A stretch of DNA of 33,794 nucleotides from a virus: positions 1 to 33,794 of IMG/VR virus record IMGVR_UViG_3300032246_001485; one strand, written 5' to 3'. Position 1 is the first letter of the stretch; each line of letters opens with the position of its first letter. The translations under genes were made by a program, and so were the position numbers. Positions 4,126-30,403 of this stretch are shown here, one piece after another. Under the pieces are notes generated by a model. The model was not told the DNA's origin. It searched no databases and was given only the letters and a program-made list of their open reading frames with translations.

Positions 4126-4131
4126 GCTTTT

Positions 4132-4163
4132 ATTGTATCGCACGGAAAAACTGGCAACCCAGG
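4132..4163 (-). promoter_or_regulatory. Leaderless promoter of terL with upstream repeat copy
   Basis: TACAAT at 4137-4132 sits 6 nt before the ATG. Upstream at 4143-4163 is a copy of the dispersed CCCAGG-N7-TTTTTCCG repeat, whose hairpin CTGG-GTTG-CCAG plus five T could also act as a mini-terminator for the gene upstream. Confidence 0.55.
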
Positions 4164-6667: not shown

Positions 6668-6697
6668 ATTTGTCCTTTCGTCGTTTGTCATACCTCA

Positions 6698-17746: not shown

Positions 17747-17810
17747 CCAGGTCCCCTGTTTTTCCATTCACTCGACGCGCAGCGAGGCGCATGGAAAAAG
17801 TGGCGGCGTG
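17747..17810. repeat. Inverted pair of dispersed repeats
   Basis: CCAGG-N7-TTTTTCCA (17747-17766) faces TGGAAAAA (17792-17799), giving an interrupted palindrome of about 60 bp just before a terminator. Confidence 0.65.
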
Positions 17811-18085: not shown

Positions 18086-18238
18086 CTAGTCGCAGAAAGG
18101 CACGAGTTGAGCCTTGATGTGAAGGTCGCTGTCCTTGTTGTAATCCTCAACAAAAGCAACAGACTCTTCAAAAGTGCTGAACGAAAGAATCTTGCGTGAA
18201 AGCAAAATGCTGTCGTAAATGGCGACATCAAAAGTCAT
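18086..18238 (-). CDS. 50-residue hypothetical protein
   Basis: MTFDVAIYDSILLSRKILSF, then a helix FEESVAFVEDYNKDS and an end HIKAQLVPFCD. AGAGGTGATAAAG precedes ATG 18238. Looks like a small ferredoxin-like fold, not recognised. Confidence 0.7.
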   Translation of the reverse strand: MTFDVAIYDSILLSRKILSFSTFEESVAFVEDYNKDSDLHIKAQLVPFCD

Positions 18239-18281
18239 CTTTATCACCTCTCTTTCCGCTCCCCCTGGGAACTACTTACAG

Positions 18282-18311
18282 TCTATGCGCTGCTATGGAC
18301 ATTTTAGTCAA
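18282..18311 (-). promoter_or_regulatory. Promoter of 18238 gene
   Basis: TTGACT (18311-18306) running into AAAATGTCC; CATAGA (18287-18282) at 18 nt. Confidence 0.6.
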
Positions 18312-18328
18312 ACACGATACATTTTGCT

Positions 18329-18345
18329 GTTTGCTCTGAGCGAAC
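18329..18345 (-). promoter_or_regulatory. ClgR-like box A
   Basis: GTTTGCTCTGAGCGAAC, palindrome of type GTTCGC-N5-GCGAAC with one mismatch. It ends 17 nt upstream of the -35 of the 18238 promoter. Confidence 0.55.
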
Positions 18346-18890
18346 AAGATTTGCCCCCTCGCCAGATGACCCGGAAAAACATAAGACCTTCTCGAAGAAA
18401 AAATCGAAGCAAAGCGAAGCATGAGTTTTTTTTGAAATCTAAAAAACTTTCCTCACAAAAATCTAAAAAAGTCAGGTCATCCCTTTTTCCATTCGCTCGA
18501 AGATGCGAAAAAATAAAACCTTACGACGCGTTTTTCCTCTGCATCTCAGTTCTTTGCTTTTTTTTTCAGTTCTTCTGCTTTTTCTAGCATCTTTTCTCCT
18601 CAGCGTCTTTCCTGAATGGAAAATCCACACACCCAGGTGCATCTATCGCATTTCTTATGCTTTTCAGCATTCTCCTCTGCATCTGGAATGTTCCCTCTGC
18701 ATCTGAGGCAAAAACACGACCCGTCAAGTTCTCCACACTGCACATACATAAAACACGACCCGTCACTCTTCTCAACACCTACCCGTTAAGGTTCACGCAT
18801 TATTGCTTAGGGCTAGCCGTCACACGCAATGGGGGCTTGCCGATTGCGCTTGCCGTCTTATCCGTTAGGGGCTAGCCGTTAAAGGAGAAA
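18346..18890. other. Gene-free region
   Basis: A/T-rich tracts, GGAAAAACATAAG and TTATGCTTTT motifs, two CCWGG-N7-TTTTTCCA copies (18473-18491, 18617-18637), then from 18720 a run of CCCGT and GCCGT motifs in one orientation. No supported gene. Confidence 0.6.
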
Positions 18891-19117
18891 CCCCCTAACA
18901 GATTGGGGGAATCTGCTAGGGGGCGAGCCGTCGGGAGTTCGTTAGGGGGAACGGAGATGTCCCGACGGGGTTTTGGGGGCGAGCCGTATCGGTTACTGGG
19001 GGGAGGTCTCGATACGACCCGCCGTGCTGGTCTCCACGGGCTACCGTGGTGGTTACTTGTTATCACTCATAACCAGCAGGTGACGGGGGCGGTGCGTTTG
19101 GGGACACCGCGCCCGTC
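18891..19117. ncRNA. Candidate GC-rich structured RNA, five hairpins
   Basis: Five consecutive stems: CCCCCTA/TAGGGGG with inner AGATT/AATCT (18891-18923); CCGTCGGG/CCCGACGG (18928-18968); CGTATCG/CGATACG (18985-19016); CCACGG/CCGTGG (19034-19049); GACGGG/CCCGTC with inner CGGTG/CACCG (19082-19117). The first and last share a two-stem plan with a 2x2 internal loop. Much GC-richer than its surroundings. Frames here have low-complexity products, so coding is unlikely. Strand and function unknown. Confidence 0.5.
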
Positions 19118-19125
19118 AGGTCTTG

Positions 19126-19449
19126 TTAGGAAAGAGCCTTGATGTAGTCGTAAGACGAGTCTTTCATAATCGCCTCGTAGACTGCTGGATACTGCTCTTT
19201 GAGCATCTGGCGGTCTGGGTCTTGCTTAGACACAGCCAGAATCTTGAAGACGATTTCGCCACCCATAGTGGCTAGTTCGGCGTCTCCTAGTTTTGCTCGG
19301 AGAATGACCTCTGCCTTAGCCTTAGCCTCGTCAGCGTCTTTCTTTGCTTGTAGAGACTCTTTGAAAATACGAAGAGCCTCGCGGACTTCGGCGTCGAATC
19401 CAAGTTCGATTGTCTTGCCTTTTACAGTGGGGGTCAGCGCTTTTGCCAA
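19126..19449 (-). CDS. YqaJ-associated-type protein
   Basis: 107 aa; TTG 19449 is 9 nt from AAGGAG, while TTG 19458 abuts it. FKESLQAKKDADEAKAKAEV is a helical linker, followed by ILRAKLGDAELATMGGEIVF and DRQMLKEQYPAVYEAIMK. The helix-then-beta unit followed by L-K-x-x-x-P-x-x-Y-E resembles the tail that accompanies YqaJ-type phage exonucleases, but no exonuclease domain is in this window. Inference from motif shape only. Confidence 0.65.
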   Translation of the reverse strand: MAKALTPTVKGKTIELGFDAEVREALRIFKESLQAKKDADEAKAKAEVILRAKLGDAELATMGGEIVFKILAVSKQDPDRQMLKEQYPAVYEAIMKDSSYDYIKALS

Positions 19450-19508
19450 TGACCTCAACTCCTTATGTCGTTTTGTCGTTCATCAAATCTTTTGACCTGA
19501 TACTTACT

Positions 19509-19538
19509 ACATTAGGCTATCCCTCTGACATTTGTCAA
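19509..19538 (-). promoter_or_regulatory. Promoter of 19449 gene
   Basis: TTGACA (19538-19533) running into AATGTCAG; TAATGT (19514-19509) at 18 nt. Confidence 0.7.
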
Positions 19539-19652
19539 GTTTATTAGATAACAACTTGATAACGCCTCTTGATGCCTAAATCTTGCTTTCGCTTGATACA
19601 TAAATAGTAACACGATACACAGACATTTTATGCGTGTTTCGCAAACTATTTT

Positions 19653-19669
19653 GTTCGCTGTCAGAGAAC
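19653..19669 (-). promoter_or_regulatory. ClgR-like box B
   Basis: GTTCGCTGTCAGAGAAC, one mismatch from symmetry. Overlaps the stop of the 45-aa gene and lies upstream of an AATGTCTG/TACTAT promoter-like stretch at 19604-19628. Confidence 0.55.
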
Positions 19670-19806
19670 TAAAAGTTCTCGTTCACCCAAGCCAAAAGTT
19701 CGGCGTAGGGTGTGTTGTTTTTTATTAGGTTGAATAGTTCCTGACTCTCAGCGAGCAAGTTCACATCAACAGTAGATTCGTTGGACAACATCAGTAATGT
19801 ATTCAT
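19669..19806 (-). CDS. 45-residue hypothetical protein
   Basis: MNTLLMLSNESTVDVNLLAE, then helical SQELFNLIKNNTPYAEL and LLAWVNENF. AGGAG precedes tandem ATGs (19809, 19806); the second has better spacing. Cotranscribed after the ClgR-like gene, 15 nt gap. Not recognised. Confidence 0.7.
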   Translation of the reverse strand: MNTLLMLSNESTVDVNLLAESQELFNLIKNNTPYAELLAWVNENF

Positions 19807-19821
19807 CATCTCTCCTATGAT

Positions 19822-20115
19822 TTACCAGGTAAGGACTTTTTCCATTGTGTCGAGTTCGACATCTCGTGTGATGTAATCAAACTCCTCGGAGTCGCGCAGT
19901 TTGCGTGATGCCTCGTCAATAATCTTATAGAGGGGGAGTGACAATCCCTGAACGACACATTCCAAAACTAACGAGGAAGCATCTTTTGTTCCTCGCTCAA
20001 CTTCGGAAAGGTAGCCCAATGAAATGTGTGACTTAGCGCTTAGGTCACGCAGGGTCATACCTTTTTCCATTCGCGCTGTGCGAATCGACTCTCCAATAGC
20101 AGTTGCTAGATTCAT
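19822..20115 (-). CDS. ClgR-like XRE-family transcription regulator
   Basis: 97 aa. The HTH spans about residues 7-60: IGESIRTARMEKGMTLRDLS, then ISLGYLSEVERGTKDASS and LVLECVVQGLSLPLYKII. The combination T-L-R-D-x-S, S-L-G-Y-L-S-E-V-E-R-G-x-K-x-A-S-S is diagnostic of ClgR, the actinobacterial activator of clp and lon protease genes and of chaperone-linked stress genes. The family normally ends in an ssrA-like or AA degron; this one ends instead EKVLTW, encoded by a CCAGG-N7-TTTTTCCA repeat. Five ClgR-type palindromes occur in the window, so it may control phage promoters, host genes or both. Confidence 0.85.
   Translation of the reverse strand: MNLATAIGESIRTARMEKGMTLRDLSAKSHISLGYLSEVERGTKDASSLVLECVVQGLSLPLYKIIDEASRKLRDSEEFDYITRDVELDTMEKVLTW
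19825..19844. repeat. Dispersed repeat copy inside ClgR-like coding end
   Basis: CCAGG, 7 nt, TTTTTCCA; encodes the C-terminal MEKVLTW. Confidence 0.6.
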
Positions 20116-20145
20116 TTGTCTTTTTGTCTCTTTCGTTTTGGCAGA

Positions 20146-20421
20146 TTAGTCTGCTTGTTCAGTTTCTTTTGACTCTTCTTCTTCTGACTTGTCATTAGGG
20201 TCAAAGCCAGCAACAACCTTGCCATCTTTGTCGAGGATAGAAACCTCGCCAGCAATGAACTCGGGAGTCGGAAGAACTGGGTATTCTGCTTTGTATTCGT
20301 CGGCGATTGGGTCGTTCAGAATGTATTTCAGAACGCACGCAGTCGCTTGACGCTGTGCTACAAACTCGTCGAGGTCTTCAATCTCGAATCGCACTTGGGC
20401 GACAACTGTGAACTTTTCCAT
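20146..20421 (-). CDS. Hypothetical protein with acidic tail
   Basis: 91 aa: MEKFTVVAQVRFEIEDLDEF suggests a strand-helix start; middle PEFIAGEVSILDKDGKVVAG; acidic low-complexity end. GAAGG is 8 nt upstream. Followed by the ClgR-like gene in the same unit. Not recognised. Confidence 0.75.
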   Translation of the reverse strand: MEKFTVVAQVRFEIEDLDEFVAQRQATACVLKYILNDPIADEYKAEYPVLPTPEFIAGEVSILDKDGKVVAGFDPNDKSEEEESKETEQAD

Positions 20422-20488
20422 TTGGAAACCTTCTTTCTTTTCTAAATCATTTTACACCACTTCGGAAAGTGGAGTTTCGGTAGCAAGT

Positions 20489-20533
20489 AGCCACCTACCC
20501 TCTATTGTAGGGCAGGTGGCTCTCGCTTGTCAA
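20489..20533 (-). promoter_or_regulatory. Promoter with inverted repeat across -10
   Basis: TTGACA (20533-20528), 18-nt spacer, TACAAT (20509-20504) for the 20421/20115/19806 unit. AGCCACCT (20489-20496) and AGGTGGCT (20514-20521), with inner CCCT/AGGG, form an inverted repeat centred on the -10, a likely operator or a terminator of the preceding gene. Confidence 0.7.
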
Positions 20534-20536
20534 GGG

Positions 20537-20767
20537 TTAGTTTTTGAGTTGCTCCTGAGTGAGTGAACACTCGTCGCAACGATTCTCAAACTCAGGGTTG
20601 AACTCGTGTTCTCCCTTTGCGAAGTGGTCTGAGAGCGAGGGGCGACTATTGTCTGTCGCGCTCTCAATCTCTTCCCACATTGCGTCAGTCCAGTCGGAAA
20701 TGTCGTGGACTTCTAATCCACTAGCGTCTCCATACGAACCATCAGATGCGAAATAGAACTTAGACAT
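20537..20767 (-). CDS. Hypothetical acidic protein
   Basis: 76 aa, MSKFYFASDGSYGDASGLEV, then DISDWTDAMWEEIESA and RCDECSLTQEQLKN with one CxxC. GAGAGGAAG precedes ATG. Not recognised. Confidence 0.7.
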   Translation of the reverse strand: MSKFYFASDGSYGDASGLEVHDISDWTDAMWEEIESATDNSRPSLSDHFAKGEHEFNPEFENRCDECSLTQEQLKN

Positions 20768-20778
20768 AACTTCCTCTC

Positions 20779-21183
20779 TTAGTAACTCGCGTGAGTAATG
20801 TTCGAGCCAAGAGTCTTGGCTTTGTCGTAGATGTCGTCAAGGTTGATTGAGACTGCCTCGCCCTTGTTGTTGTAGGCAACAGCCCAGCCATTGACATAGC
20901 GAATCTTCTCTGAGCCAGCGCCCATTACGATTGCTACTTCGTCGTCTGCTAGGTGACGCTTGAAGAACTCTTCCCAGTCGATTTCGATTTCGTCTTCGTT
21001 CTCGTCGCGTAGCCATACAGGGAATCCATACTCCTGAGAGCCTAAGATTCCAAAGTAGGTCTTGCCATCTCGTTCCTGAGTGACGACTTCGGAGTCGCCA
21101 ATGAACGAACACTCTTTCTTGAACGCCTCAGCGTCTTTGACCAAGAAGTAGTTAGTGCGTGCTGTTTCGTAGTAGTTTGCCAT
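20779..21183 (-). CDS. Conserved phage/plasmid protein
   Basis: 134 aa. MANYYETARTNYFLVKDAEA is a recurring start of actinobacterial phage and plasmid proteins; then GILGSQEYGFPVW, an acidic region ENEDEIEIDWEEFF, and EKIRYVNGWAVAYNNKGE. AAAGGAG before ATG. Function unknown. Confidence 0.8.
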   Translation of the reverse strand: MANYYETARTNYFLVKDAEAFKKECSFIGDSEVVTQERDGKTYFGILGSQEYGFPVWLRDENEDEIEIDWEEFFKRHLADDEVAIVMGAGSEKIRYVNGWAVAYNNKGEAVSINLDDIYDKAKTLGSNITHASY

Positions 21184-21228
21184 AAGGCTGTTCTCCTTTC
21201 AAAAGAACTTTTGTCACTCTTTGATTCT

Positions 21229-21256
21229 AGTGTATGGGGCTGACATTTATTGTCAA
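21229..21256 (-). promoter_or_regulatory. Promoter of 21183 gene
   Basis: TTGACA (21256-21251), AATGTCAG in the spacer, TACACT (21234-21229) at 16 nt. Confidence 0.7.
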
Positions 21257-21272
21257 CCCCACACCCTAAGTT

Positions 21273-21650
21273 TTAGAACTCGTGTTCGCAGTCAATCTGT
21301 CCACACTCGGCGCACATCTGATTGTCGCAGTCGTGACACATCTCCCACTGGGCGATTGCCTCTGGTGAAGTTGGCTTGTCGCACTGGGGGCAGATAACTT
21401 CTTCCACCTTTACTACTTGGCAGACCAAGCAGATTACTTCGTGGTCGTCAGATAGGTTATCGACTCCCCAAGTGTGTTGGTGTTCCTTAACTCCAAAGAA
21501 ATCCGCGAGCGCCTCTTGCGTTCCACAAGCGGAACAGATTTCAGTCTTGTTGTCTTTGCGAGACAACGCACCTGAGTAGGCTCCCGGAGTTTCGTTGTTC
21601 GGAATCTGTCCATCACAAGATGGGCAGGGGTGGGTTCGTAGGTCGCTCAT
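21273..21650 (-). CDS. Multi-zinc-ribbon protein
   Basis: 125 aa from ATG 21650 (TAATG overlap with upstream stop; the longer frame to 21743 is out of register with that gene and rejected). CxxC pairs in HPCPSCDG, EICSACGT, VICLVCQV, EVICPQCDK, EMCHDCDN and QMCAECGQ suggest three zinc ribbons. The N-terminal SGALSRKDNKTEICSACG block is common in actinophage proteins. Nucleic-acid or protein binding is likely; function unknown. Confidence 0.85.
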   Translation of the reverse strand: MSDLRTHPCPSCDGQIPNNETPGAYSGALSRKDNKTEICSACGTQEALADFFGVKEHQHTWGVDNLSDDHEVICLVCQVVKVEEVICPQCDKPTSPEAIAQWEMCHDCDNQMCAECGQIDCEHEF

Positions 21651-21904
21651 TAGCGTGCCTCGCTTTCTAGGAACAGACTCGCGTTTAGAACGAAGTCGTT
21701 GTTGGAACTGACAAAACCTTTTTGCCAGTCGTTTTCGGCGCAAGCAACCAGAGTTGCGAATCGTGCCAAAGCCAGAGATAGCAGTGGGTAATACTCCTGC
21801 CAGTCGTTAGCAACTCCATCAGTCCAAGATAGTTCGTAGTCACGCTCACGCTTTGTGATTGTCACTGGAACATCTGCGACCATTACCTGAATAACATTTT
21901 TCAC
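21650..21904 (-). CDS. Hypothetical protein, GTG start
   Basis: 84 aa; GTG 21904 with AAAGGAG 10 nt upstream. Begins MKNVIQVMVADVPVTITK, contains YELSWTDGVANDWQEYYPL. Coupled to the zinc-ribbon gene. Not recognised. Confidence 0.7.
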   Translation of the reverse strand: MKNVIQVMVADVPVTITKRERDYELSWTDGVANDWQEYYPLLSLALARFATLVACAENDWQKGFVSSNNDFVLNASLFLESEAR

Positions 21905-21939
21905 TTTGGGTTGTCTCCTTTCAAAGACCTTGTAGTAAT

Positions 21940-21969
21940 AGTAAACACTACTACTGACATTTTTGTCAA
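21940..21969 (-). promoter_or_regulatory. Promoter of 21904 unit
   Basis: TTGACA (21969-21964) running into AAAATGTCAG; TTTACT (21945-21940) at 18 nt. Confidence 0.65.
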
Positions 21970-21988
21970 GTTTATTTTTAGGCGTGTC

Positions 21989-22294
21989 TTAGATTGGGTT
22001 AGCAACTTCAACAGGCTCGTATCCTTTGTCAACCTTTGAGTAGTATTTCTCCCAAGCAAACTTCATTGCTTGCTCTTTGGTCTGGAAAGACTTGACCTGA
22101 ACTTGCCACCAACTCTGTGATTGCTCAGCACGACCCCAGCGAACTGCGACATACCAAACAGGTAAGTTGTTCTGCGTGCCGGGGAATACATCTACTCTGT
22201 ATCCCTTGCGACGACCTTCCTCGCCACGCTCGCCAGTTGACTCAGCGAAAAGCAGGGCTGAAATCTTGTTGCCCTCTACTTGTCTAAATGACAT
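21989..22294 (-). CDS. WGR-domain-like protein
   Basis: 101 aa. LPVWYVAVRWGRAEQSQSWW, FQTKEQAMKFAWEKYYSKV and the ending KGYEPVEV follow the WGR domain plan (WxxxxRWGR, then F-x-s-x-x-x-A-x-x-F-x-K, then K-x-x-G-Y), a domain that binds nucleic acid in poly(ADP-ribose) polymerases and occurs alone in bacteria. GGAG before ATG 22294. Confidence 0.7.
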   Translation of the reverse strand: MSFRQVEGNKISALLFAESTGERGEEGRRKGYRVDVFPGTQNNLPVWYVAVRWGRAEQSQSWWQVQVKSFQTKEQAMKFAWEKYYSKVDKGYEPVEVANPI

Positions 22295-22336
22295 CTTGTA
22301 TCTCCTTCATTTCGTCATTACAAGAACTATAACTCA

Positions 22337-22364
22337 ATGGTATGACATCTTGTTCCTTTGTCAA
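22337..22364 (-). promoter_or_regulatory. Promoter of the WGR-like gene
   Basis: TTGACA (22364-22359), GATGTCA in the spacer, TACCAT (22342-22337) at 16 nt. Confidence 0.65.
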
Positions 22365-22385
22365 GGGTTTTTATACAACTTTCTT

Positions 22386-22402
22386 GTTCGCCCTGAGAGA
22401 AC
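22386..22402 (-). promoter_or_regulatory. ClgR-like box C
   Basis: GTTCGCCCTGAGAGAAC, GTTCGC-N5-GxGAAC palindrome, 21 nt upstream of the -35 of the WGR-like gene. Confidence 0.55.
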
Positions 22403-22474
22403 AGTCTTCCTCCTCTCGACAAAGTTATTTCATAAGCGTCGAGCGCAAAGCGCGAGATGCGCGAACCTCGTGAA

Positions 22475-22534
22475 TGGAAAAACTGGTAACCCAGGTTTTC
22501 CAGGTCCTCCTTTTTTCCATTCACGCGTCGCGTG
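22475..22534. repeat. Two dispersed repeat copies back to back
   Basis: TGGAAAAA-N7-CCCAGG (22475-22495) then CCAGG-N7-TTTTTTCCA (22500-22519), followed by a further TGGAAAAAA, producing nested palindromes. Confidence 0.7.
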
Positions 22535-22541
22535 GAAAAAA

Positions 22542-22565
22542 ATAACCCCCTCATTTCTGAGGGGA
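22542..22565 (-). terminator. Terminator after 22580 gene
   Basis: CCCCTC/GAGGGG stem; minus strand continues GTTATTTTTTT. Confidence 0.85.
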
Positions 22566-22579
22566 TTATCTTTTGGTGC

Positions 22580-22984
22580 TTACGCGATTGCTCGCTTGAA
22601 GAACTTGTGATTCCCAATGGTTTCTGTGGTGTAGACAATGTTGAAAATCTTTTCAAAAGCCTCGCGAATCTGAGGCGTAATGTCTACATACTGAGCCTGA
22701 GCCAAAGCGTAGATGGCGTCTGCCCCAACAAAGCCAGGGATAGCATCTGCTTTTGTGTAGTCACCTACAATCAAAACTCTGTCTCCAACCCATCTTCCTG
22801 ACACCTCAGTGAATGGAAAATCTCCACCACCCTCACTAGGCGATGTCATTGTGAGGACATACATAGCGTCTGATAAAGACGCGTCACATCCAGTCTGCTC
22901 GTATTGCTTTGAGCCTAAACCTAAGCCGTGAGGGTCTACCCACTCCTGCTTATCTATGTTTACTAATCTGTGATACTGACCCAC
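22580..22984 (-). CDS. Conserved phage hypothetical protein, GTG start
   Basis: 134 aa; GTG 22984 is 7 nt from AGGAG (TTG 22990 is too close). MGQYHRLVNIDKQEWVDPHG, LGLGSKQYEQTGCDA, GGGDFPFTEVSGRWVGDRVL and a C-terminal helical part. The GLGxGxKQ and GRWxGDRVxIVGDY motifs recur in actinophage proteins. A repeat-like GATTTTCCATTCAC lies within. Function unknown. Confidence 0.8.
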   Translation of the reverse strand: MGQYHRLVNIDKQEWVDPHGLGLGSKQYEQTGCDASLSDAMYVLTMTSPSEGGGDFPFTEVSGRWVGDRVLIVGDYTKADAIPGFVGADAIYALAQAQYVDITPQIREAFEKIFNIVYTTETIGNHKFFKRAIA

Positions 22985-23009
22985 CGTCAATCTCCTTTTA
23001 TCTTCCTAT

Positions 23010-23131
23010 GGCGTGCCGTTTACGCACGCCGTCATTGTGTCTCTTAGGCGAGCCGTTGCGCTCGCCGTTTTGTTTTGTAGACGAGGCTTGCCGTTTGACA
23101 AGCCCCGCCTACCGCGAGCCGTTAGACTCGC
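23010..23131 (-). other. Array of four hairpins with AACGG loops
   Basis: Between the VWA stop and the ribosome-binding site of the next gene: GCGAG/CTCGC (23131-23114), GGCTTG/CAAGCC (23104-23085), GCGAGC/GCTCGC (23065-23048), GGCGTG/CACGCC (23030-23010). On the minus strand every loop carries AACGG although stems differ in sequence. Confidence 0.65.
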
Positions 23132-24996
23132 GAGCCGATTGCCGACAGAGCCTTGGCCGCTGCCTCGCCGATGATGGCAGAGGCGGTGGTCGGTGACTCC
23201 GTTGACTTGAGGTCGACTACGCGACCAGCCGTTCCGTGTAGCAACTCCGTTGGCTCGTGAACCTTGCCATCGAAAGTTAGCCACAGGATTGCGACACCGT
23301 TCTTGTCAGCCTCGCGGAGCAACTTCTTGGCGTGTGCTTTTTGGTCTGGTCGGTAGTGACCGTCAGAGACGACCACAAGCAACTTAGCGCCATCGGCACG
23401 AGTCAGGTTCATTGCTCCGTCAAGAGCCTTGAACGCCTTGTCAAACTCTTCAGTAGAGTCAGACGCGGTGTAGGTCTTGACTTCAGTCAGGCGCTGTCCC
23501 GGCTTGAGAGTCGGGAAGACATCTTGACCACAGTAGACCATCGCGCACTTGCCCTGAACTCGGCGCACAGCCTCGCTCATAACCCAAGCAGTGATAGCCA
23601 TAGGTTGCATAGCCATCTTCATCGAACCAGAGATGTCCACGATAACGCCAACATTTAGAGTTGGGTCGTCAGTGGTCTTGCGCTTGGTCGTGCGCCACGC
23701 CTCGACTGGAGTGTGAACGCCACGAGCCTTGAGTGCCTGACCCTGAATGAAAGCGCGTGAGCGCAGACGACCTGGTGGCACAACGCTAGCAACACGAGTC
23801 TGAGAGCGCTCGCGGTATTTTGCTTTACGCAGTGCGTTAGCAATCTTGTTCGCTGCTGCCAACTCTTCACCCTTTGGGGCGCGAGTTTCGATTAGGCGTG
23901 AGCGAGTCTTCTCGCCACTGACATGAGAGCCAGTAGAAGTTGGGTCTTGGTTGAACACCTTGTCTGCCAAGTCCTTAGATTCTTTGCGCTCCTTAGACTC
24001 CTGCTCGCGAGACTCGGCCTCTTCCTTGCGCTCCTCGACCTCGATTTCATCATCGAGTTCGTTCTGGGTCGCAATGCCAGCAGCCTCTTGGTTGTCCTTG
24101 ATGGCTTGCTTGACTTTCTGGATGAAGTCCTTGAAGTCTTCGATTTGCTGAGGAGTTGGCTGACCACCCTCGCCAGTGCCCGGTTCGCCCGGCTGACCAG
24201 GTGTGCCACCCTCGCCCGGCTCCTGACCCTCGCTCTCGCCAGTCTCTTCCTTGCGCTCGTCAAGAACCTTTAGGAACTCACGAGTTAGGTCATAGAGTGG
24301 CAAAGCATTGGAGTGCTGGTCGTGCTGCTGGAAGTCTTTCCAGATGGCACGCAACTTGGCGATAACTTCATTGCTAAGAACTTCGCCTACGATTTGGTGA
24401 ACAGAGTCAACGATGTCGCGCTCGTCAAGAACGCCAGCGTCAACGCGAGCCAAAGTTAGCAAAGCCATAAACGCAGCAGCATCAACCTTGGAAACATTCT
24501 TGGCTTGCTCTTCGATTTCGTCTAGGACAATCTCAACAGCGCAAGCGCGAAGTAGCGCCCTGTTCTTTGGTAGGAACTGGCAACCCCAGTATTCGATACG
24601 CGACTCTTCCATTGCGTGAATGAATCGGAGTTCGCGAGGGGTCAAGTCTTTGGCTGCTTGCTCTAGCGACCAGCGAGAGAGACGAGCGTGAAGTGCCTCG
24701 TGGTAAATCGCGCCAGCGCCCATTGCGTGCTTGAGTTGATTCTTGCGCTGAGTCATTTCGCCAACTTGGTCTGGCGTAACGCCAACACCAAAAGCCTTAG
24801 GGATAGAGACTTCAATCTCGGCGCTAGCCGGGTTGAAACAAGCAGGTGCGCCAATAGTGGTGTCTCCCGCGAGCGCGACTACTAGGTCTTGGCGCAGTGA
24901 CCACTGGTTGACAAGTTTGCCAACGCTAGCGTTCACGCCTAGCCATTCGTAGTCAACGCGACCAATAGGTCGAGTGTTTAGAGTGTGGTGTCCCAT
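23122..24996 (-). CDS. VWA-domain protein, CobT/DUF2201-like, with HExxH motif
   Basis: 624 aa from ATG 24996 (AAAGGAG upstream). An N-terminal alpha-helical part carries AIYHEALHARLS with HExxH (H99-E100-H103) and a downstream HAMEESRIEYWG, as in metallopeptidase-like VWA partners. A Pro/Gly/Glu-rich linker (about 250-285) and a highly charged coiled region (about 310-345) follow. The C-terminal VWA domain has the MIDAS motif DISGSM (about 454-459) and VVSDGH. Such proteins pair with MoxR ATPases as metal-binding or remodelling modules, like CobT of cobaltochelatase. The upstream gene is that ATPase. The TAA stop is part of a TAACGGC motif. Confidence 0.9.
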   Translation of the reverse strand: MGHHTLNTRPIGRVDYEWLGVNASVGKLVNQWSLRQDLVVALAGDTTIGAPACFNPASAEIEVSIPKAFGVGVTPDQVGEMTQRKNQLKHAMGAGAIYHEALHARLSRWSLEQAAKDLTPRELRFIHAMEESRIEYWGCQFLPKNRALLRACAVEIVLDEIEEQAKNVSKVDAAAFMALLTLARVDAGVLDERDIVDSVHQIVGEVLSNEVIAKLRAIWKDFQQHDQHSNALPLYDLTREFLKVLDERKEETGESEGQEPGEGGTPGQPGEPGTGEGGQPTPQQIEDFKDFIQKVKQAIKDNQEAAGIATQNELDDEIEVEERKEEAESREQESKERKESKDLADKVFNQDPTSTGSHVSGEKTRSRLIETRAPKGEELAAANKIANALRKAKYRERSQTRVASVVPPGRLRSRAFIQGQALKARGVHTPVEAWRTTKRKTTDDPTLNVGVIVDISGSMKMAMQPMAITAWVMSEAVRRVQGKCAMVYCGQDVFPTLKPGQRLTEVKTYTASDSTEEFDKAFKALDGAMNLTRADGAKLLVVVSDGHYRPDQKAHAKKLLREADKNGVAILWLTFDGKVHEPTELLHGTAGRVVDLKSTESPTTASAIIGEAAAKALSAIGSRV

Positions 24997-25028
24997 AAGA
25001 GACTCCTTTCGTTTTTGTTCATACCTCA

Positions 25029-25058
25029 ATTTTAGGGTATACCCTGACATTTTGTCAA
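25029..25058 (-). promoter_or_regulatory. Promoter of the VWA gene
   Basis: TTGACA (25058-25053) running into AAATGTCAG; TAAAAT (25034-25029) at 18 nt. Confidence 0.75.
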
Positions 25059-25084
25059 CATCATTTTGAAAGTTTTTGGAGAGG

Positions 25085-25156
25085 GAGTGGGGACATAGGT
25101 CGACCCACTCCCCCTCGTTCAACCAAAATCTCGATTAGGGGAGACCTAGATTTTGG
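25085..25156 (-). terminator. Two hairpins between moxR-like and VWA genes
   Basis: CCAAAATCT/AGATTTTGG (25156-25123) covers the ATPase stop; GAGTGGG/CCCACTC (25110-25085) follows. T-runs are short, so this may attenuate rather than fully stop read-through; a new promoter follows. Confidence 0.5.
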
Positions 25157-26174
25157 CTGGCTTTGATTCCATCGCGAACACGCGAGTGAAAACATCGGCG
25201 ACAATCGCCCGGTCCTCGAAAGGTGCTTGAGCGATGATGTTGCTAATCGCCCACTCAGTCCCTAGGTCTTCTGCGATGTCGCGGAAGTCGAGGAGTTCAC
25301 GCATCTGAGGTGACCAAGAAATCTCGTCACTCTTCTGCTTTTTGAAAAGGTTCTGGGCAACATTGACAGCAGGAGTCGGAACGCCCAACTTGCCAGCGAG
25401 AATCCAGTCAGTAGTCATTTCTGCCTGAATACCAAAACGCGATAGCAGTGCCTCAGAGAGATTGACTCCCGGCGCGTTTGGGTTGGTGGCAGCAACCACA
25501 AAGAAACCATCCTTTGCCTTGACGATTGCTCGCTCAGGGTTGGCAGTTACTTTGAGTTCTCTACGACCATCCATCAAGCCATAAACAACAGACAAGACCT
25601 TAGGGTCAATCAGACCAATCTCGTCAATGAGCAAGACCTTGCCCTCTTCTGCTGCTCGCACTAGCGGCCCATCGACCCACTCGAAACCACCAGCGACAGT
25701 CTGAACATAGCCACCAACTAGGTCGCCAACTTCAGTGTCACCAGTTCCGAGAACAGTGATTAGGTCGTCACCAAAAGCGCCTTCAAACATTGCTGTCTTA
25801 CCAGTGCCCGGTGCGCCATAAAGCAGGATGGACTTGCCACGAGGTGACACACGCTGACTGCGAGCAACCTCGACATCAGTGTGCTTGCCCCAAGCGCGAG
25901 TGAAATACTTGTCGCCATTAGGTCGAACATAGAAGGACTCACCCTCAAGAGCGTCAACTGCGTTCACGCGCACATTCCTTACTTTAGTTGCGCCATCGCG
26001 ATTGCGAATGACTGCCTTGCCAGTTGTTTCATCAAATACAAGGTTAAGGTCTGACGCGACAACTGAGTTGAGCGCCTGTCCAACTACTGCGTTGAGTAGG
26101 TTGGGGAGATTCTCGTGGAATCTAACTTGGTCGGCAACCCACGCTTGTGGGGTGCCCGGTGTGTATGTAGTCAT
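25146..26174 (-). CDS. MoxR-type AAA+ ATPase
   Basis: 342 aa, AGGAG upstream of ATG 26174. Walker A YGAPGTGKT (about 119-127), Walker B VLLIDEIG (about 180-187), sensor 1 VVAATNPN (about 227-233) and the Arg-finger region EALLSRFG (about 241-248). MoxR ATPases act as ring-shaped chaperones that work with VWA proteins to insert metal or remodel partners. Next gene downstream encodes the VWA partner. Likely regulates a phage or host complex; target unknown. Confidence 0.92.
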   Translation of the reverse strand: MTTYTPGTPQAWVADQVRFHENLPNLLNAVVGQALNSVVASDLNLVFDETTGKAVIRNRDGATKVRNVRVNAVDALEGESFYVRPNGDKYFTRAWGKHTDVEVARSQRVSPRGKSILLYGAPGTGKTAMFEGAFGDDLITVLGTGDTEVGDLVGGYVQTVAGGFEWVDGPLVRAAEEGKVLLIDEIGLIDPKVLSVVYGLMDGRRELKVTANPERAIVKAKDGFFVVAATNPNAPGVNLSEALLSRFGIQAEMTTDWILAGKLGVPTPAVNVAQNLFKKQKSDEISWSPQMRELLDFRDIAEDLGTEWAISNIIAQAPFEDRAIVADVFTRVFAMESKPAKI

Positions 26175-26195
26175 AATGTATGGTCTCCTAACTTA

Positions 26196-26699
26196 TTACG
26201 CTACTGGTGCTGATACTGGCTCGTCAAACAGAGCCTCTGGGAATCCAAAGGCCTTGCGTGAACGCTCAATGCGTCTAACGAGGTCGTTGGAAGTCTTACC
26301 AGACTTGATTGAATCCAAGTCTTTGTAAGTGGCCTCTACTGCCACAGGTTGCTTGAACAAAGTCCAGCCCTTGTGGAAGAGAGAGTCTAGGGTTCGCGCT
26401 AGCAAACGATTGATGTGCTGAGCGCCAATCGCTTGTGCGCCCTCAACTTCAATCTGAGTGAATCCACCAGCAGCGTCACGCTCAATGGCGTAGTCGCGAC
26501 TGGTTGGAATCGAACTGAAGTTCCAGTTTCTGCGTGGATGCCACGAAGAGATTCTGCGCTCCATCATTGCTGCTGGAACATAGTTGCCCTCGACATCGAT
26601 GGCAGGTGGAGTGACTATCACCTGGTAGGTGTAGTTGTCCTTGCGTAGTTCAAGGTAAAGCGCCTTACCAGCGCAGTCCTTTTCTGTCTTTGCGTTCAT
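26196..26699 (-). CDS. Hypothetical protein upstream of the MoxR-like gene
   Basis: 167 aa. EKDCAGKALYLELRKDNYTY, VTPPAIDVEGNYVPAAMMER, YAIERDAAGGFTQIEVEGAQ, and a basic C-terminal helix KSGKTSNDLVRRIERSRKAF. GGAG lies about 12 nt before ATG 26699, a long spacing. Only 21 nt from the ATPase gene, so probably part of the same MoxR-VWA system. Not recognised. Confidence 0.8.
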   Translation of the reverse strand: MNAKTEKDCAGKALYLELRKDNYTYQVIVTPPAIDVEGNYVPAAMMERRISSWHPRRNWNFSSIPTSRDYAIERDAAGGFTQIEVEGAQAIGAQHINRLLARTLDSLFHKGWTLFKQPVAVEATYKDLDSIKSGKTSNDLVRRIERSRKAFGFPEALFDEPVSAPVA

Positions 26700-26747
26700 A
26701 GTGTTTTGGTCTCCTAAATGTTGAACACTGTTTTGTTGTTATTAGTA

Positions 26748-26776
26748 ATTGAATCAGAGTTTCAATCACTTGTCAA
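26748..26776 (-). promoter_or_regulatory. Promoter of the 26699-moxR unit
   Basis: TTGACA (26776-26771), 17-nt spacer, TTCAAT (26753-26748); ATTGAA/TTCAAT inverted repeat spans spacer and -10. A second possible promoter (AATGTCAG, TATACA at about 26833-26828) lies upstream. Confidence 0.6.
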
Positions 26777-26847
26777 GTCTATTTCCAAAAATCTTTTTTT
26801 TGGCGTGTCGACCTGACTCTTTCGAGTGTATAGACACCCACTGACAT

Positions 26848-27081
26848 TTAATCAGTGAGCGCTACCCACTTGAGTGATTCCTCAACTACAGCGACTGCTC
26901 GCTTTGCCTTGGTCTTTGTATTGTCGATGATGCCTAGGACATTATCTAGATACTCGATGCACTCGATGGTCGGAACCCCTGCCTCTTTCATGGCGTGCGA
27001 CACTGCCAAGAGAACTGACATTGGGTCAGTTGCTTTGTGGTGGGTCGACACCTTGATGTCTGGGTATTTTGGATTGGACAT
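26848..27081 (-). CDS. Hypothetical helical protein
   Basis: 77 aa from ATG 27081 (GAGGAG 6 nt upstream; the longer frame has no signal). MSNPKYPDIKVSTHHKATDP then helices LLAVSHAMKEAGVPTIE and KAKRAVAVVEESLKW. Not recognised. Confidence 0.75.
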   Translation of the reverse strand: MSNPKYPDIKVSTHHKATDPMSVLLAVSHAMKEAGVPTIECIEYLDNVLGIIDNTKTKAKRAVAVVEESLKWVALTD

Positions 27082-27125
27082 TTTGTCTCCTCGTAATTTG
27101 TCGTTGTGATTCATAACTCCATTGT

Positions 27126-27150
27126 TGCGTATTTGATTCCCAGATGTCAA
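27126..27150 (-). promoter_or_regulatory. Probable promoter of 27081 gene
   Basis: TTGACA (27150-27145); -10 uncertain (AACAAT at 18 nt). Confidence 0.45.
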
Positions 27151-27158
27151 GTTTATTA

Positions 27159-27175
27159 TTTCGCTGTGAGCGAAC
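27159..27175 (-). promoter_or_regulatory. ClgR-like box D
   Basis: TTTCGCTGTGAGCGAAC, CGC-N5-GCG exact, 8 nt upstream of the -35 of the 27081 promoter. Confidence 0.6.
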
Positions 27176-27244
27176 GCGATTTGTCAGGCTTGCCTAACTC
27201 GATTGGAAAAGCATAAGGAAAGAAAATAGCCCAGACGCAAAAAA

Positions 27245-27312
27245 CCTGGGTCTGCACTTTTTCCATGCATCAGCATGGAAATCCACTTGCATGGAAAAAA
27301 GGGCAGCCCAGG
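27245..27312. repeat. Inverted dispersed repeats
   Basis: CCTGGG-N7-TTTTTCCATGC (27245-27267), GCATGGAAA (27273-27281), and TGGAAAAA-N7-CCCAGG (27292-27312): two right halves facing one left half. Confidence 0.7.
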
Positions 27313-27320
27313 TATTTTAG

Positions 27321-27530
27321 TTACAAGACAGGCTTCGCGCACTCAGCGCAGACAACCCACTCAGCCTCATCGTCGAGAAGAAGTACAAAAGGAACAAAGG
27401 TTCCATTTACTTCACCAACAGGTTTGAAACACTCCTCACAAATTTCATCGTCGCCAATTTCTAGCCCAACATTATTTGCAGAGGTTGAATCTTTAGTCGA
27501 TTCAATAAGGTGCATCTCGATGTGTCTCAT
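27321..27530 (-). CDS. Small zinc-ribbon protein
   Basis: 69 aa from ATG 27530 (alternative ATG 27551). MRHIEMHLIESTKDSTSANN, then EICEECFKPVGEVNG and WVVCAECAKPVL: two CxxC pairs about 31 residues apart. TATGAT lies 9 nt before the ATG and no Shine-Dalgarno is seen, so near-leaderless. Function unknown. Confidence 0.75.
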   Translation of the reverse strand: MRHIEMHLIESTKDSTSANNVGLEIGDDEICEECFKPVGEVNGTFVPFVLLLDDEAEWVVCAECAKPVL

Positions 27531-27575
27531 AATGTTTTTATCATAAAACATTACGAGATGTGTGATTTTGGTAAT

Positions 27576-27824
27576 TTACTCCAGTTCGGATACACCAAGT
27601 CCACGGTTACTTGCACGCCATACTGATGGAGAGTGATTCTCTTCTACTTCCATCTTTTCCTCTACCGTTGAGTAGAGACGCAGTATGTTGATGCACGGGT
27701 CAGAACCTTCCTCAAATTCTGCTTCTTCGCTTGCCGTCATTGGCACGCCGTCATGTGTATCGCATACGGGAGCACCAACCCACCCGTTGTCAAACCCAAT
27801 CTTCAACCAGTCTTCAAAATCCAT
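27576..27824 (-). CDS. Conserved actinophage hypothetical protein
   Basis: 82 aa. DWLKIGFDNGWVGAPVCDTH followed by DGVPMTASEEAEFEEG, DPCINILRLYSTVEEK, and HSPSVWRASN. The pattern NGW-x-x-x-PVCxTHDG and HSPSxWRA recurs in many actinophage proteins of unknown function. Contains two GACGGC motifs. The site AGATAACGGAT precedes ATG, so its ribosome-binding site is weak and part of the motif family. Confidence 0.85.
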   Translation of the reverse strand: MDFEDWLKIGFDNGWVGAPVCDTHDGVPMTASEEAEFEEGSDPCINILRLYSTVEEKMEVEENHSPSVWRASNRGLGVSELE

Positions 27825-27883
27825 ATCCGTTATCTTTCTATCCGCTATCGCTTGCCGTTATTAGTCTAACGCGCTCGCCGTTA

Positions 27884-27933
27884 CCAGGCTACCCGTTTTT
27901 CCATGCGCGTGCATGGAAAAAGTGGCAACCTGG
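27884..27933. repeat. Full palindromic copy of the dispersed repeat
   Basis: CCAGG, 7 nt, TTTTTCCATGC, 4-nt loop, GCATGGAAAAA, 7 nt, CCTGG: an 11-bp perfect inner stem and outer CCAGG/CCTGG. Confidence 0.8.
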
Positions 27934-28098
27934 TGTAAACGGGAAAAGCGCTCGCCGTGCTCGCTGACCCGCGCGTTCACGCGGAAGCCGCCGTCGGTAG
28001 AAAAAGCATAAGGTTTATTATAAAGCGAATTCTTCTTGTGCTTCAGACTGGAAGCCCTTATATTTACTGGGCTGTAGCGGGAATTGTATCTTTTTTTG

Positions 28099-28146
28099 CT
28101 TTAAACTGTCCGAGGACAGTTTAAAGTTAATTTTGCCGTTTGTCAA
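28099..28146 (-). promoter_or_regulatory. Promoter overlapped by a perfect 13+13 palindrome
   Basis: TTGACA (28146-28141), 17-nt spacer, TAAACT (28123-28118). Arms CTTTAAACTGTCC (28099-28111) and GGACAGTTTAAAG (28114-28126) are exact complements and cover the -10 and start region: a candidate operator. Confidence 0.65.
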
Positions 28147-28269
28147 GTTAAAAACATAAGGCGTTATGCTTTCGTTACATTTCCCGATTTCCCGAACTTC
28201 CCTGGGACCCTGGGAACCCGGAATAGCATAAGAGTTTTATGCTTCAAAAATAAATGTCGGTCCCTTGTG

Positions 28270-29046
28270 CTAGGTCTGCTTTGCGTTGAAGAACCCAGTA
28301 AGTTCGCCCAACAACTTCAATGAATTGAAGTCAGCATCGCCAGACGCAGAGATGCCAATGTAACCAATGTCCCTTTGGAACTTTGAGTACGCAAGTTTGG
28401 TCTTTGTATCGAAGTGCCCTCTTTGGAAACGAGTAATCCCTGTTACTTGCGTCAACGCAAGTTGTACCAACTCGACGCTCTTATGCTTCATACCTTTACG
28501 CACTTGTGCAGTGCTCACCGTTGGGGCGTTTAGGTTTGCTACTAATTGGCTTGCCGTTACATATCTTGGGCGACCATATCCGATGACTTCGCTTTGATGA
28601 CGCGTTCTTACATATACACCCGTTGGCGTATTGGCTTGCCGTTGATTACCGCTTGCCGTCATACCCTCTACCGTTTGTATAATACCGTCAGTGGCGTGCC
28701 GTGATGTATCCGTTACTATACCTATATGTGGCGAGCCGAACTCGCTTGCCGTCGACATCTGTAAGAACACAATGTCTCCCCGCTTCGGTCTTACATGGAA
28801 AAAACCCCTACCCAGGTAGTCCGCGAGCGCAACCGTTGACACCGTGTGGGCTACGGGTAAACGCACGCCCGCTTCTACCGCGACGACATCAATAAAGATA
28901 CCGTTCCAAGGCTTGCCGTTTAGTCCCCGTCGCTGGCCAAAGATATTTTCCATGCCCGTCGGCGCTTCGTAACCAACATACTCTAATGCTTTATTTATGA
29001 AGCGCTCGCGGAGTTCACTCGCCGTCGGTAAGTTTCTCGGTGTCAC
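28270..29046 (-). CDS. CHAP-like/peptidoglycan-binding protein lacking catalytic Cys
   Basis: 258 aa if GTG 29046 is the start; no Shine-Dalgarno, 32-nt overlap with the upstream gene, start uncertain. The N-terminal part has the CHAP/NlpC fold plan: PWNGIFIDVVAVEAGV where PWC is expected (Asn48), RPKRGDIVF, SPHIGIV (His107) and a later NGVYVRT-like segment. The C-terminus (about 175-255) has a peptidoglycan-binding_1-like helical repeat, SVELVQLALTQVTG and KLAYSKFQRDIG. The loss of the Cys suggests a wall-binding protein or an unusual hydrolase. The DNA is dense in GACGGC/AACGGC motifs and holds one CCWGG-N7-TTTTTTCCA copy (28796-28816) read as LGRGFFH. Confidence 0.75.
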   Translation of the reverse strand: MTPRNLPTASELRERFINKALEYVGYEAPTGMENIFGQRRGLNGKPWNGIFIDVVAVEAGVRLPVAHTVSTVALADYLGRGFFHVRPKRGDIVFLQMSTASEFGSPHIGIVTDTSRHATDGIIQTVEGMTASGNQRQANTPTGVYVRTRHQSEVIGYGRPRYVTASQLVANLNAPTVSTAQVRKGMKHKSVELVQLALTQVTGITRFQRGHFDTKTKLAYSKFQRDIGYIGISASGDADFNSLKLLGELTGFFNAKQT

Positions 29047-29218
29047 TTGATATGACCGTCGCTTCCTGGAGATGCATAAGGTTATGTAATATGTTGACCG
29101 CTTCGTTTGCTCGAGCCGCCGTTCTAATGTGCTCGACGCGATTTGATGCTTGCTTCACATCATCGTGGAGTCCGTTAGCGAGGTCGACCATCTGGTCAAT
29201 TACTTCATTTAGTGTCAT
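29015..29218 (-). CDS. Small helical protein
   Basis: 67 aa, MTLNEVIDQMVDLANGLHDD, then VKQASNRVEHIRTAARANEA, predicted helical throughout. AGAGG before ATG 29218, inside the end of the upstream gene (14-nt overlap). Ends TDGE with a GACGGCGAG motif. Not recognised. Confidence 0.75.
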   Translation of the reverse strand: MTLNEVIDQMVDLANGLHDDVKQASNRVEHIRTAARANEAVNILHNLMHLQEATVISSDTEKLTDGE

Positions 29219-30122
29219 CTTGAACTACCTCTGCGTCTACGGTCTCTTCTACTATAACTGTCTCTGGCTCTTGGGTCGCCTCGAAACGCCGCTGCGCCTC
29301 AATTGCGTTTGTGGCTAGTCTTTGTAGACGCTCAGCAATAATCGATGCGGCGGGGCGGACATCAAGAGTGACATCGGTATTGATGTCGATACCAGCGCGG
29401 ATACCAGCGCGGTCAAGAATCTCGGTGGCCGCTTTTAGTTTGACTGGTTCGGACTCTGCGTTGTCCATAAGTTGTTCAAGAACATCGACGGCGGTTGGTG
29501 TGGCTTGCGTCAACCGAGAGCGGGCGCGTTCCACTGAGTCGGTAGGTTTATTCCTTAGTGAGCCGAGGTGAACGCGACATAGCCCGTCATCGGCAGCCCT
29601 CCCGCCAGACCAAAGTTGGCAACGGATACCGTCATCTTTGATTGCCTTGCATCGACGCGGGAGCGGGAGTTCCTTTTTTCCATGCGCGAGTTCGCCTGAG
29701 TTCTGTTGCTTAGCCCAAGCGCGTGTTGCTCCTAGAACCCAAGGTGGGGCGATGTAGTCTGCTGCTGACTCGGCTATGAGATTGTAGCCAGTTATATAAT
29801 CAGAATTTTTATCGTCTGGTTCAGACAAGATTGCTATCTTCTCGTCAAGAGAAAGTAGACGCTGTTGAGATTGCATCTCGGGAGACAGTGCTTGAATCAA
29901 ACCAGTGGGAACGCCATTAAGGGCGTAGACAGGAAGCCAGTTGAACTTTGCTCGACGCAATGCTTGTCTGTTTTCAAAAGTATCTAGACATACGCCACGG
30001 TCTGTCTCTTCGATTCCGTACTGGGATAGGTCTGGTCTGAGATTTATAGGGGTGTCGATTTGGACATCTGGCTGTTCCAACTCAGGTTTGGCAAACGGGT
30101 CTCTCTCAATTGCGTCTGACAT
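29205..30122 (-). CDS. Putative terminase small subunit-like protein with zinc motif
   Basis: 305 aa, AGAGGA before ATG 30122. Middle motif RRCKAIKDDGIRCQLWSG with a following GLCRVHLGS gives C-x7-C-x12-C-x3-H, a short zinc knuckle seen in phage proteins. The C-terminal third VDVLEQLMDNAESEPVKLKA, then ATEILDRAGI and a RPAASIIAERLQRLA helix, resembles C-terminal parts of actinophage small terminases or terminase-associated HTH proteins. Distant from terL, so assignment is tentative. Confidence 0.55.
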   Translation of the reverse strand: MSDAIERDPFAKPELEQPDVQIDTPINLRPDLSQYGIEETDRGVCLDTFENRQALRRAKFNWLPVYALNGVPTGLIQALSPEMQSQQRLLSLDEKIAILSEPDDKNSDYITGYNLIAESAADYIAPPWVLGATRAWAKQQNSGELAHGKKELPLPRRCKAIKDDGIRCQLWSGGRAADDGLCRVHLGSLRNKPTDSVERARSRLTQATPTAVDVLEQLMDNAESEPVKLKAATEILDRAGIRAGIDINTDVTLDVRPAASIIAERLQRLATNAIEAQRRFEATQEPETVIVEETVDAEVVQDDTK

Positions 30123-30345
30123 AAATGGTGTCCTCTGTTTAAGAGTTGAGCGGCCAGACTGGGGAGAGACTGCTGACCGCCCAACCCATAACTTTGCGAT
30201 GCGCTCGCAGTTTGAGGATGTCTCTGCCCGTCGGAGTAAGGTCCGACAGTTATCACTATACGCTATGAGCGAAATCTGCTCCGGGCGAAATTTTGCCCCT
30301 GGTGAGGGACCGGGGTACCTTTTTCATTTACAAACGAAGAAAAAA
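30123..30345. other. Gene-free stretch before 30122
   Basis: Contains ClgR-like box E (30258-30274), a CGGGGTACC-TTTTTC repeat-like end, and possible -10 TATAGT; no gene. Confidence 0.5.
30258..30274 (-). promoter_or_regulatory. ClgR-like box E
   Basis: ATACGCTATGAGCGAAA; minus strand CGCTCATAGCG is an exact CGCYNANRGCG. A TATAGT -10 overlaps its end. Confidence 0.55.
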
Positions 30346-30379
30346 CCCCGAAAAATCAAGGGTTCGATTTTTTCGGGGC
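30346..30379 (-). terminator. Strong terminator after 30404 gene
   Basis: CCCCGAAAAA pairs with TTTTTCGGGG; minus strand continues TTTTTTC. Confidence 0.9.
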
Positions 30380-30403
30380 TAATTCTAAAAAGTGTTTTGA
30401 AAA

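Follow-up and report, generated by a model that had tools for sequence, protein, structure and literature searches.

ClgR, a regulator known from Streptomyces, Corynebacterium, Mycobacterium and Bifidobacterium, activates clpP1P2 and clpC (PMC3613350), and its binding motif has been given as GTTCGC-5N-GCG in S. lividans (PMC9775585) and as TNCGCT-N3-GGCGNAA in B. breve (PMC9004370). In Corynebacterium glutamicum, clpP1 and clpP2 have also been reported as members of the sigma-H regulon (PMC3489674), whose promoter consensus reads GGAAt-N18-19-GTT (PMC10012870). Here we describe a 33.8-kb virus contig of IMG/VR (record IMGVR_UViG_3300032246_001485; "the window" denotes the whole stretch that was analyzed, 33,794 nucleotides [nt]), which encodes a ClgR-like protein of its own and carries four ClgR-type palindromes, boxes A to D. 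We consider it fairly probable that this phage ClgR, together with the host RNA polymerase, activates a phage regulon via promoters shaped like that of the host clpP1P2 operon. In the open literature, we found no description of a ClgR regulon encoded by a phage, subscription papers lying outside the scope of that search.

The terminase TerL encoded by the window (2734-4143) is 77% identical to that of the Actinomycetia phage DSL-LC01 (OQ999401), which was assembled from Dishui Lake (129 kb) and assigned to Actinomycetia (PMC10611076); the next-best TerL relatives belong to Microbacterium and Gordonia phages. Since the gene order of the window also agrees with that of DSL-LC01 around the genes for an AAA+ ATPase and a VWA protein, the window is most likely, judged by this kinship, a piece of a phage of about 130 kb with an actinobacterium as its host.

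The phage ClgR-like protein and the ClgR-type boxes

The original prediction had pointed to a ClgR-like open reading frame (ORF), and this gene is indeed present:

19822..20115, minus strand, ClgR-like regulator P0001, 97 amino acids, XRE-type helix-turn-helix

Its best sequence matches in the PDB were the ClgRs of Mycobacterium smegmatis (5woq, E 5e-15) and C. glutamicum (3f51), and a fold comparison of its AlphaFold model (mean predicted local distance difference test score 85) gave ClgR chains at all ten top ranks, with which P0001 shares 35-41% identity over the aligned region. The recognition region SLGYLSEVERG is the same as the consensus of 80 bacterial ClgRs; over the longer stretch SLGYLSEVERG-x-KE-x-SS, P0001 is identical save for K-D in place of K-E, and the recognition-region columns are invariant across 10 phage ClgRs. 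Against the NCBIfam ClgR model (NF041677, equivalog), P0001 scored 75.8 bits (E 2.7e-21), which is below the cut-off of 170, and we therefore call it ClgR-like rather than an accepted equivalog. By its best sequence and predicted-fold matches and its unchanged recognition helix, P0001 is a divergent ClgR.

In a tree with the 80 bacterial ClgRs, which rests on a short alignment with long branches and no outgroup, the phage proteins formed one separate side (support 90/72; one change in 88% of bootstrap trees), and the clade that holds the ClgR of the window was strongly supported (100/97). A C-terminal AA marks ClgR of S. lividans for ClpP (PMC9775585). This ending was found in none of 25 phage ClgRs and in 27 of the 80 bacterial ones; since the remaining 53 bacterial proteins lack it as well, it is not universal there. 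The AA-free phage proteins suggest an escape from ClpP feedback.

To sample relatives of the window, we scanned IMG/VR with TerL, which gave 495 related loci, 80 of which were kept; a direct search of IMG/VR with the ClgR or the VWA protein returned no matches. A search of whole records covered 50 related records, and clgR was present in 31 of them. Sites of the form GTTCGC-N5-GCGAAC with at most one mismatch occurred in eight, seven of which were the records with the closest ClgRs; the eighth, G044, has a single site within a coding region, without a promoter core, and was set aside. As G005, G006, G007 and G009 share an identical ClgR and identical sites, they were counted as one, so that the comparison set consists of five phages: the window, G002, G009, G010 and G011. 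The candidate sites in the window are:

18329..18345, minus strand, ClgR box A, GTTCGCTCAGAGCAAAC, 26.6 bits, orthologues in G002, G009, G010 and G011
19653..19669, minus strand, ClgR box B, GTTCTCTGACAGCGAAC, 23.9 bits, orthologues in the same four phages, left half always GTTCTC
22386..22402, minus strand, ClgR box C, GTTCTCTCAGGGCGAAC, 25.4 bits
27159..27175, minus strand, ClgR box D, GTTCGCTCACAGCGAAA, 24.5 bits, orthologues in the four phages
30258..30274, minus strand, site E, 9.4 bits, rejected as a ClgR box

All five had been proposed to follow GTTCGC-N5-GCGAAC with at most one mismatch and to fit CGCYNANRGCG on the minus strand with the same tolerance. The second statement is correct throughout, while the first one applies to boxes A, B, C and D, each of which has exactly one mismatch, and fails for site E, which has three despite a mismatch-free CGCYNANRGCG core. 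Site E moreover scores below the mean simulated maximum of 10.4 bits, i.e., at chance level, has no promoter core in register, and no orthologue of it was found in the relatives. The designation of the palindromes as ClgR-type was borne out by their match to the published ClgR sites and to the boxes found in clpP1 promoters. The shared orientation of all sites with transcription follows from the fact that nearly all genes of the window lie on the minus strand.

The window has four matches with at most one mismatch, compared to 0.09 on average and never more than 2 in 200 sequences simulated with an order-2 Markov model. With a scoring matrix derived from the phage group, boxes A-D reached 24-27 bits, compared to a best score of 15.2 in 20 simulated windows; because this matrix contains A-D themselves, the match count is the cleaner test. 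All four boxes are found at the same, syntenic places in G002, G009, G010 and G011. Among the five phages, identity in the half-sites is 90-100% for each of the four boxes, compared to 50-76% for the spacer within the box and 35-43% for the 40 nt upstream of boxes A, C and D. The 40 nt upstream of box B are 89% identical, and a conserved small gene ends there:

19669..19809, minus strand, 46-amino-acid ORF (MMNTLLML...LLAWVNENF), directly after clgR, stop codon touching box B

This ORF is kept behind clgR in G002, G009, G010 and G011 and in the more distant G017 and G024, and its product is a possible partner of ClgR, as judged from this conservation. Deviations within the half-sites are site-specific and retained, with GTTCTC in all B sites and GCAAAC in all A sites. 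In the records of G009 and G011 (about 135 kb each), all site matches are confined to one block of 10-15 kb. Two further matches were excluded: one in G002 at 32223, which lies in a terminator-like hairpin and lacks a promoter core, and one in G009 at 64242, also without a core.

Promoter layout at the phage boxes and at clpP1 loci

When 21 boxes of the phage group were aligned on the box alone, 19 of them had GGAA(T/G/C)-N17/18-GTTAT downstream, matching at no fewer than 9 of the 10 positions; the core spacer is N18, with N17 in two cases. The two exceptions are the window's own boxes A and B, and the core behind B is degenerate yet in register. Counted from the start of the box, GGAA follows after 35-36 nt in 16 of these 19 cases, after 46-47 nt, i.e., about one helical turn later, at box C of the window and of G002, and after 30 nt at box D of G002. 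The corresponding elements of the window are:

27113..27140, minus strand, promoter core D, GGAAT-N18-GTTAT, 35 nt after the box start
22329..22356, minus strand, promoter core C, GGAAC-N18-GTTAT, 46 nt after the box start
19607..19634, minus strand, degenerate promoter core B, CGCAT-N18-GTTAC, in register at 35 nt
18306..18311, minus strand, TTGACT downstream of box A, near the GGAA(G/T) position of the orthologues

In the orthologues of site B, the core reads GGAAT-N18-GTTAT, and no core was recognizable behind box A in the window. In an unsupervised count of dyads in non-coding DNA, GGAAT-N18-GTTA ranked first in both G010 and G011, with 7 occurrences compared to an expectation of about 0.05.

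These data bear on the TTGACA block that the original prediction had placed 17, 21 and 8 nt downstream of boxes A, C and D and had taken for the -35 element. The distances are accurate, while the hexamer at A is TTGACT, and the assignment as a -35 element is probably not correct. No -10 element lies about 17 nt downstream of TTGACA, and GGAA(T/G/C)-N17/18-GTTAT is conserved instead, for which reason TTGACA was rejected for C and D; the -35 element is probably GGAA(T/G/C), 17-18 nt ahead of GTTAT. The activator-like placement of the sites was upheld at the sequence level, since they keep their position upstream of the promoter core from phage to phage.

When 2.9 million viral contigs were scanned for the box combined with the core, 23 stretches turned up, located on 12 contigs, and the 15 distinct sequences among them all come from this phage group. 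We confirmed clgR on 10 of the 12 contigs, intact in nine and split over two fetched stretches in 3300043391_000492; it was not seen in the fetched stretches of 3300008107_000478 and 3300048670_000327, where its presence is not established.

The original prediction had recommended a comparison with host ClgR targets such as clpP, and this comparison was productive: clpP1 promoters of candidate-host lineages carry ClgR boxes together with GGAAG-N18-GTTA. At 27 clpP1 loci with a box, all seven positions of GGAA...GTT were present in 15 cases and six of seven in another 8, always with N18; chance would give about 0.5% (seven of seven) and 11% (six of seven) per locus, the loci being related and not independent. 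The spacings at these loci are 30-31, 40-41, 45 or 50-51 nt. The number 27 is a lower bound because loci with an unrecognized start motif are missed, among them the freshwater actinobacterial clpP1P2 promoter of SCGC AAA027-J17. Its box, AATCGCTAACGGCGAAC, is followed by GGAAG 36 nt from the box start, by N18 and by GTTAAGG, an arrangement identical to that of the phages. The box of the actinobacterial clpP1 promoter L328, TTTCTCTCAGGGCGAAC, has 16 of 17 bases in common with box C of the window. In ten related bacterial genomes, the strict form TTCGCY-N3-RGCGAA hardly occurs, and host boxes are therefore less symmetric than those of the phages; in addition, the host clpP1P2 promoters combine GGAAG with GTTA(A/G)(T/G)GT, whereas the phages mostly have GGAAT and GTTATAGT.

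The phage core agrees with the C. glutamicum sigma-H consensus in both sequence and spacing (N18, or N17 in the two cases noted above), whereas its AT-rich TATAGT, which overlaps GTT, also resembles a sigma-A -10 element. A SigH_actino protein is encoded in 18 of 20 candidate-host genomes. Searches for the Sigma70_r2 domain in 12 related phage records found none, and Sigma70_r4_2 gave nothing above the cut-off in 8; a phage-encoded sigma factor for these promoters was rejected on the basis of these records. The sigma factor in use is most likely the host's own, perhaps, to go by the consensus, the extracytoplasmic function factor sigma-H.

Proposed regulon and alternative explanations

The kinship of the protein, the sites with their conservation and spacing, and the resemblance to clpP1 promoters of hosts were established by computation. 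In the mechanism that we propose, the phage would produce its 97-amino-acid ClgR with the bacterial recognition helix retained, and this protein would bind, presumably as a dimer, to GTTCGCY-N3-RGCGAAC at promoters A-D, all within the block of genes upstream of the terminase. Sitting upstream of the core, ClgR would recruit the host RNA polymerase to GGAA(T/G/C)-N18-GTTAT; an activating role is suggested because the box lies upstream of the core and its spacing changes by one turn. The layout, in which a ClgR box is followed by a spacer and a core (GGAAG-N18-GTTA in the host), appears to be copied from the host clpP1P2 promoter, and the presumed targets are phage genes, including the run with the AAA+ ATPase and the VWA protein. 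We infer early timing of the boxed genes from their small size and their location before TerL. The phage system shares with bacterial ClgR the fold, the recognition helix, the operator GTTCGC-N5-GCG and a box located upstream of a GGA-N18-GTTA core, as seen in bacterial clpP1 promoters, and differs from it in being phage-encoded, in the score below the NCBIfam cut-off, the missing AA ending and the targets seen, which are phage genes and not clp.

The original prediction had spoken of a regulon built on a regulator of protein quality control. No clp or lon gene was recognized behind boxes A-D among the family matches of the window genes, and the link therefore stands at the level of the promoter layout, which copies that of host clpP1P2. 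A wider version, in which the phage captured the whole Clp stress control, we regard as tentative and somewhat doubtful: ClgR without AA would not be shut off by ClpP, host sigma-H would read the copies of the clpP1P2 promoter, phage expression would be tied to or locked on by protein stress of the host, and ClgR of related phages would act on host clp genes.

Several observations weigh against the proposed regulon. Within the window, the core is clear at C and D only, B being degenerate and A being without one, and copies of the core that lack a box are found in these phages as well as in G029. With 30 nt at site D of G002 and with 30 and 45 nt in hosts, box and core do not always fall on one helical face. 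For M. tuberculosis clpP1, TAGTGT has been mapped as the -10 element and attributed to sigma-A (PMC3613350); in the clpP1 promoter alignments, TAGTGT corresponds to the end of GTTAGTGT. The closest phages are one clade, and hence the conservation of the sites does not represent four independent events. Furthermore, more distant phages (G012-G025, G032 and G046; L146-L166) encode ClgR homologues roughly 36-52% identical to P0001 with near-identical recognition helices, and no ClgR boxes were present in the stretches examined; phage ClgR and phage boxes are therefore separable, and the ClgR of these distant phages may act on host genes. A search for an alternative palindrome in them, by gapped-palindrome and dyad counts, gave hairpins and other repeats, and no ClgR-like operator.

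The distant phages are one argument for a rather unlikely course of events in which host genes (clpP1P2, clpC) would be the first targets of the phage ClgR lineage, the phage boxes having been added later in one clade. The still bacterial recognition helix, the position of the phage ClgRs as one group apart from the 80 bacterial ones and the lack of the AA ending in every phage ClgR, compared to its presence in 27 of 80 bacterial proteins, would agree with such an order, whereas the boxes are clearly constrained in the clade of the window, and the AA ending is also absent from 53 of the 80 bacterial ClgRs. In the main rival reading, host ClgR would be the chief reader of the boxes, phage genes would rise under protein stress of the host and the phage ClgR would be secondary or redundant. 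The near identity of host clpP1 and phage boxes (16/17 for L328 and site C), the identical recognition helices and the matching layouts of box and core speak for this possibility; we consider it unlikely, however, as a close phage ClgR is encoded by all 10 box-bearing contigs in which the clgR locus is covered, and as the phage boxes are more symmetric, their strict form being so rare in the ten bacterial genomes.

Folds of the XRE type include many repressors and controller proteins, and phage ClgR could, like many phage XRE proteins, act as a repressor at the boxes. This is quite improbable, since the boxes are placed upstream of the core without overlapping it, GGAA starting 30-47 nt after the box start, and since ClgR has been described as an activator in Streptomyces, Bifidobacterium, C. 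glutamicum and M. tuberculosis. Chance palindromes or parts of hairpins do explain site E and the G002 site at 32223; for boxes A-D, simulations, half-site conservation, spacing and synteny refute this explanation, and its overall probability is close to negligible. Activation of phage genes by the phage ClgR at clpP1P2-like promoters is the reading that we favor, and it would amount, as the promoter comparison suggests, to a host stress circuit taken over to run phage genes. If true, phages of lake actinobacteria mimic a host stress promoter down to its spacing with a regulator of their own, which provides a testable case of a phage wired into the protein quality control of its host. The natural set of boxes and spacings also details the geometry of ClgR operator and promoter beyond the few published host sites that we found.

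WhiB-type regulators of actinophages, e.g., of DSL-LC01, likewise represent a host regulator family on phage genomes; they belong to another protein family, and ClgR, unlike them, is accompanied here by operator sites in the phage genome. DSL-LC01, despite its similarity to the window, has no ClgR and no ClgR boxes that we found. At 37959-38648 of its sequence (L005), in the corresponding block, it encodes an HslV-like protease subunit beside a WhiB gene, which is another link to protein quality control in this phage family.

Genes behind the boxes and other repeats

The genes downstream of the boxes are:

18086..18247, minus strand, small protein gene after box A, 53 amino acids, ORF 98 nt from the box start
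19126..19440, minus strand, gene after box B, 104 amino acids, resembling phrog_434 / phrog_1956
21989..22294, minus strand, gene after box C, 101 amino acids, WGR domain
26848..27081, minus strand, first gene after box D, 77 amino acids
26196..26699, minus strand, second gene after box D, 167 amino acids, no family match
25146..26174, minus strand, AAA+ ATPase after box D (PF07728, E 8e-21)
23122..25017, minus strand, VWA/CobT-like protein after the AAA+ ATPase, weak VWA_CoxE match

Counterparts of 51-56 amino acids follow site A in the other phages. Box B is located behind clgR and the 46-amino-acid gene, and clgR itself lies about 2 kb beyond the WGR gene on the same strand, with possible promoters in between. 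The VWA/CobT-like gene is syntenic with a DSL-LC01 gene annotated as cobalamin biosynthesis protein. Three further genes of the window were recognized:

30754-31398, minus strand, Mom-like DNA modification gene (Pfam Mom E 1e-43; phrog_1384 E 6e-59)
5699-6691, minus strand, histone-deacetylase-like protein, 330 amino acids, recognized by eye
2117-2692, plus strand, opposite to nearly all genes, tyrosine-phosphatase-like protein, 191 amino acids, recognized by eye (CQAGLNRSG)

The window also contains other repeats. An element of about 24 bp, CC(A/T)GG-N6-8-TTTTTCCAT(T/G)C, has 22 core copies (about 0.6 expected) in both orientations, often as inverted pairs (e.g., 27898-27930, 22505-22530 and 17757-17800); two copies are intragenic, one of them in clgR. 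Cognate elements occur in distant relatives, e.g., AAGGG..TTTTCCACGCA in G014 and CCAGGGGG..TTTTCCACC in G012. The sequence AACGGCNNGC is present in 16 copies (0 expected) at 28550-28920, 27850-27890, 23010-23130, 18880 and 16280-16400, and in 16-24 copies in other close phages, largely between genes. TTGACA-N2-5-TGTCAG inverted repeats at 21220-21260, 21940-21975 and 19515-19545 are promoter-like and have no ClgR box; G014 has five copies of TTGACA-N2-TGTCAG, and these repeats are perhaps the sites of a second regulator. A different class of promoter or operator is found in DSL-LC01 from 24285 to 32853 and on, where 14 copies of CTAAA-N14-ATCA lie inside GATTCTAAAG..GTTATAATAGAATCA, with a TATAAT -10 element within the palindrome, ahead of genes.

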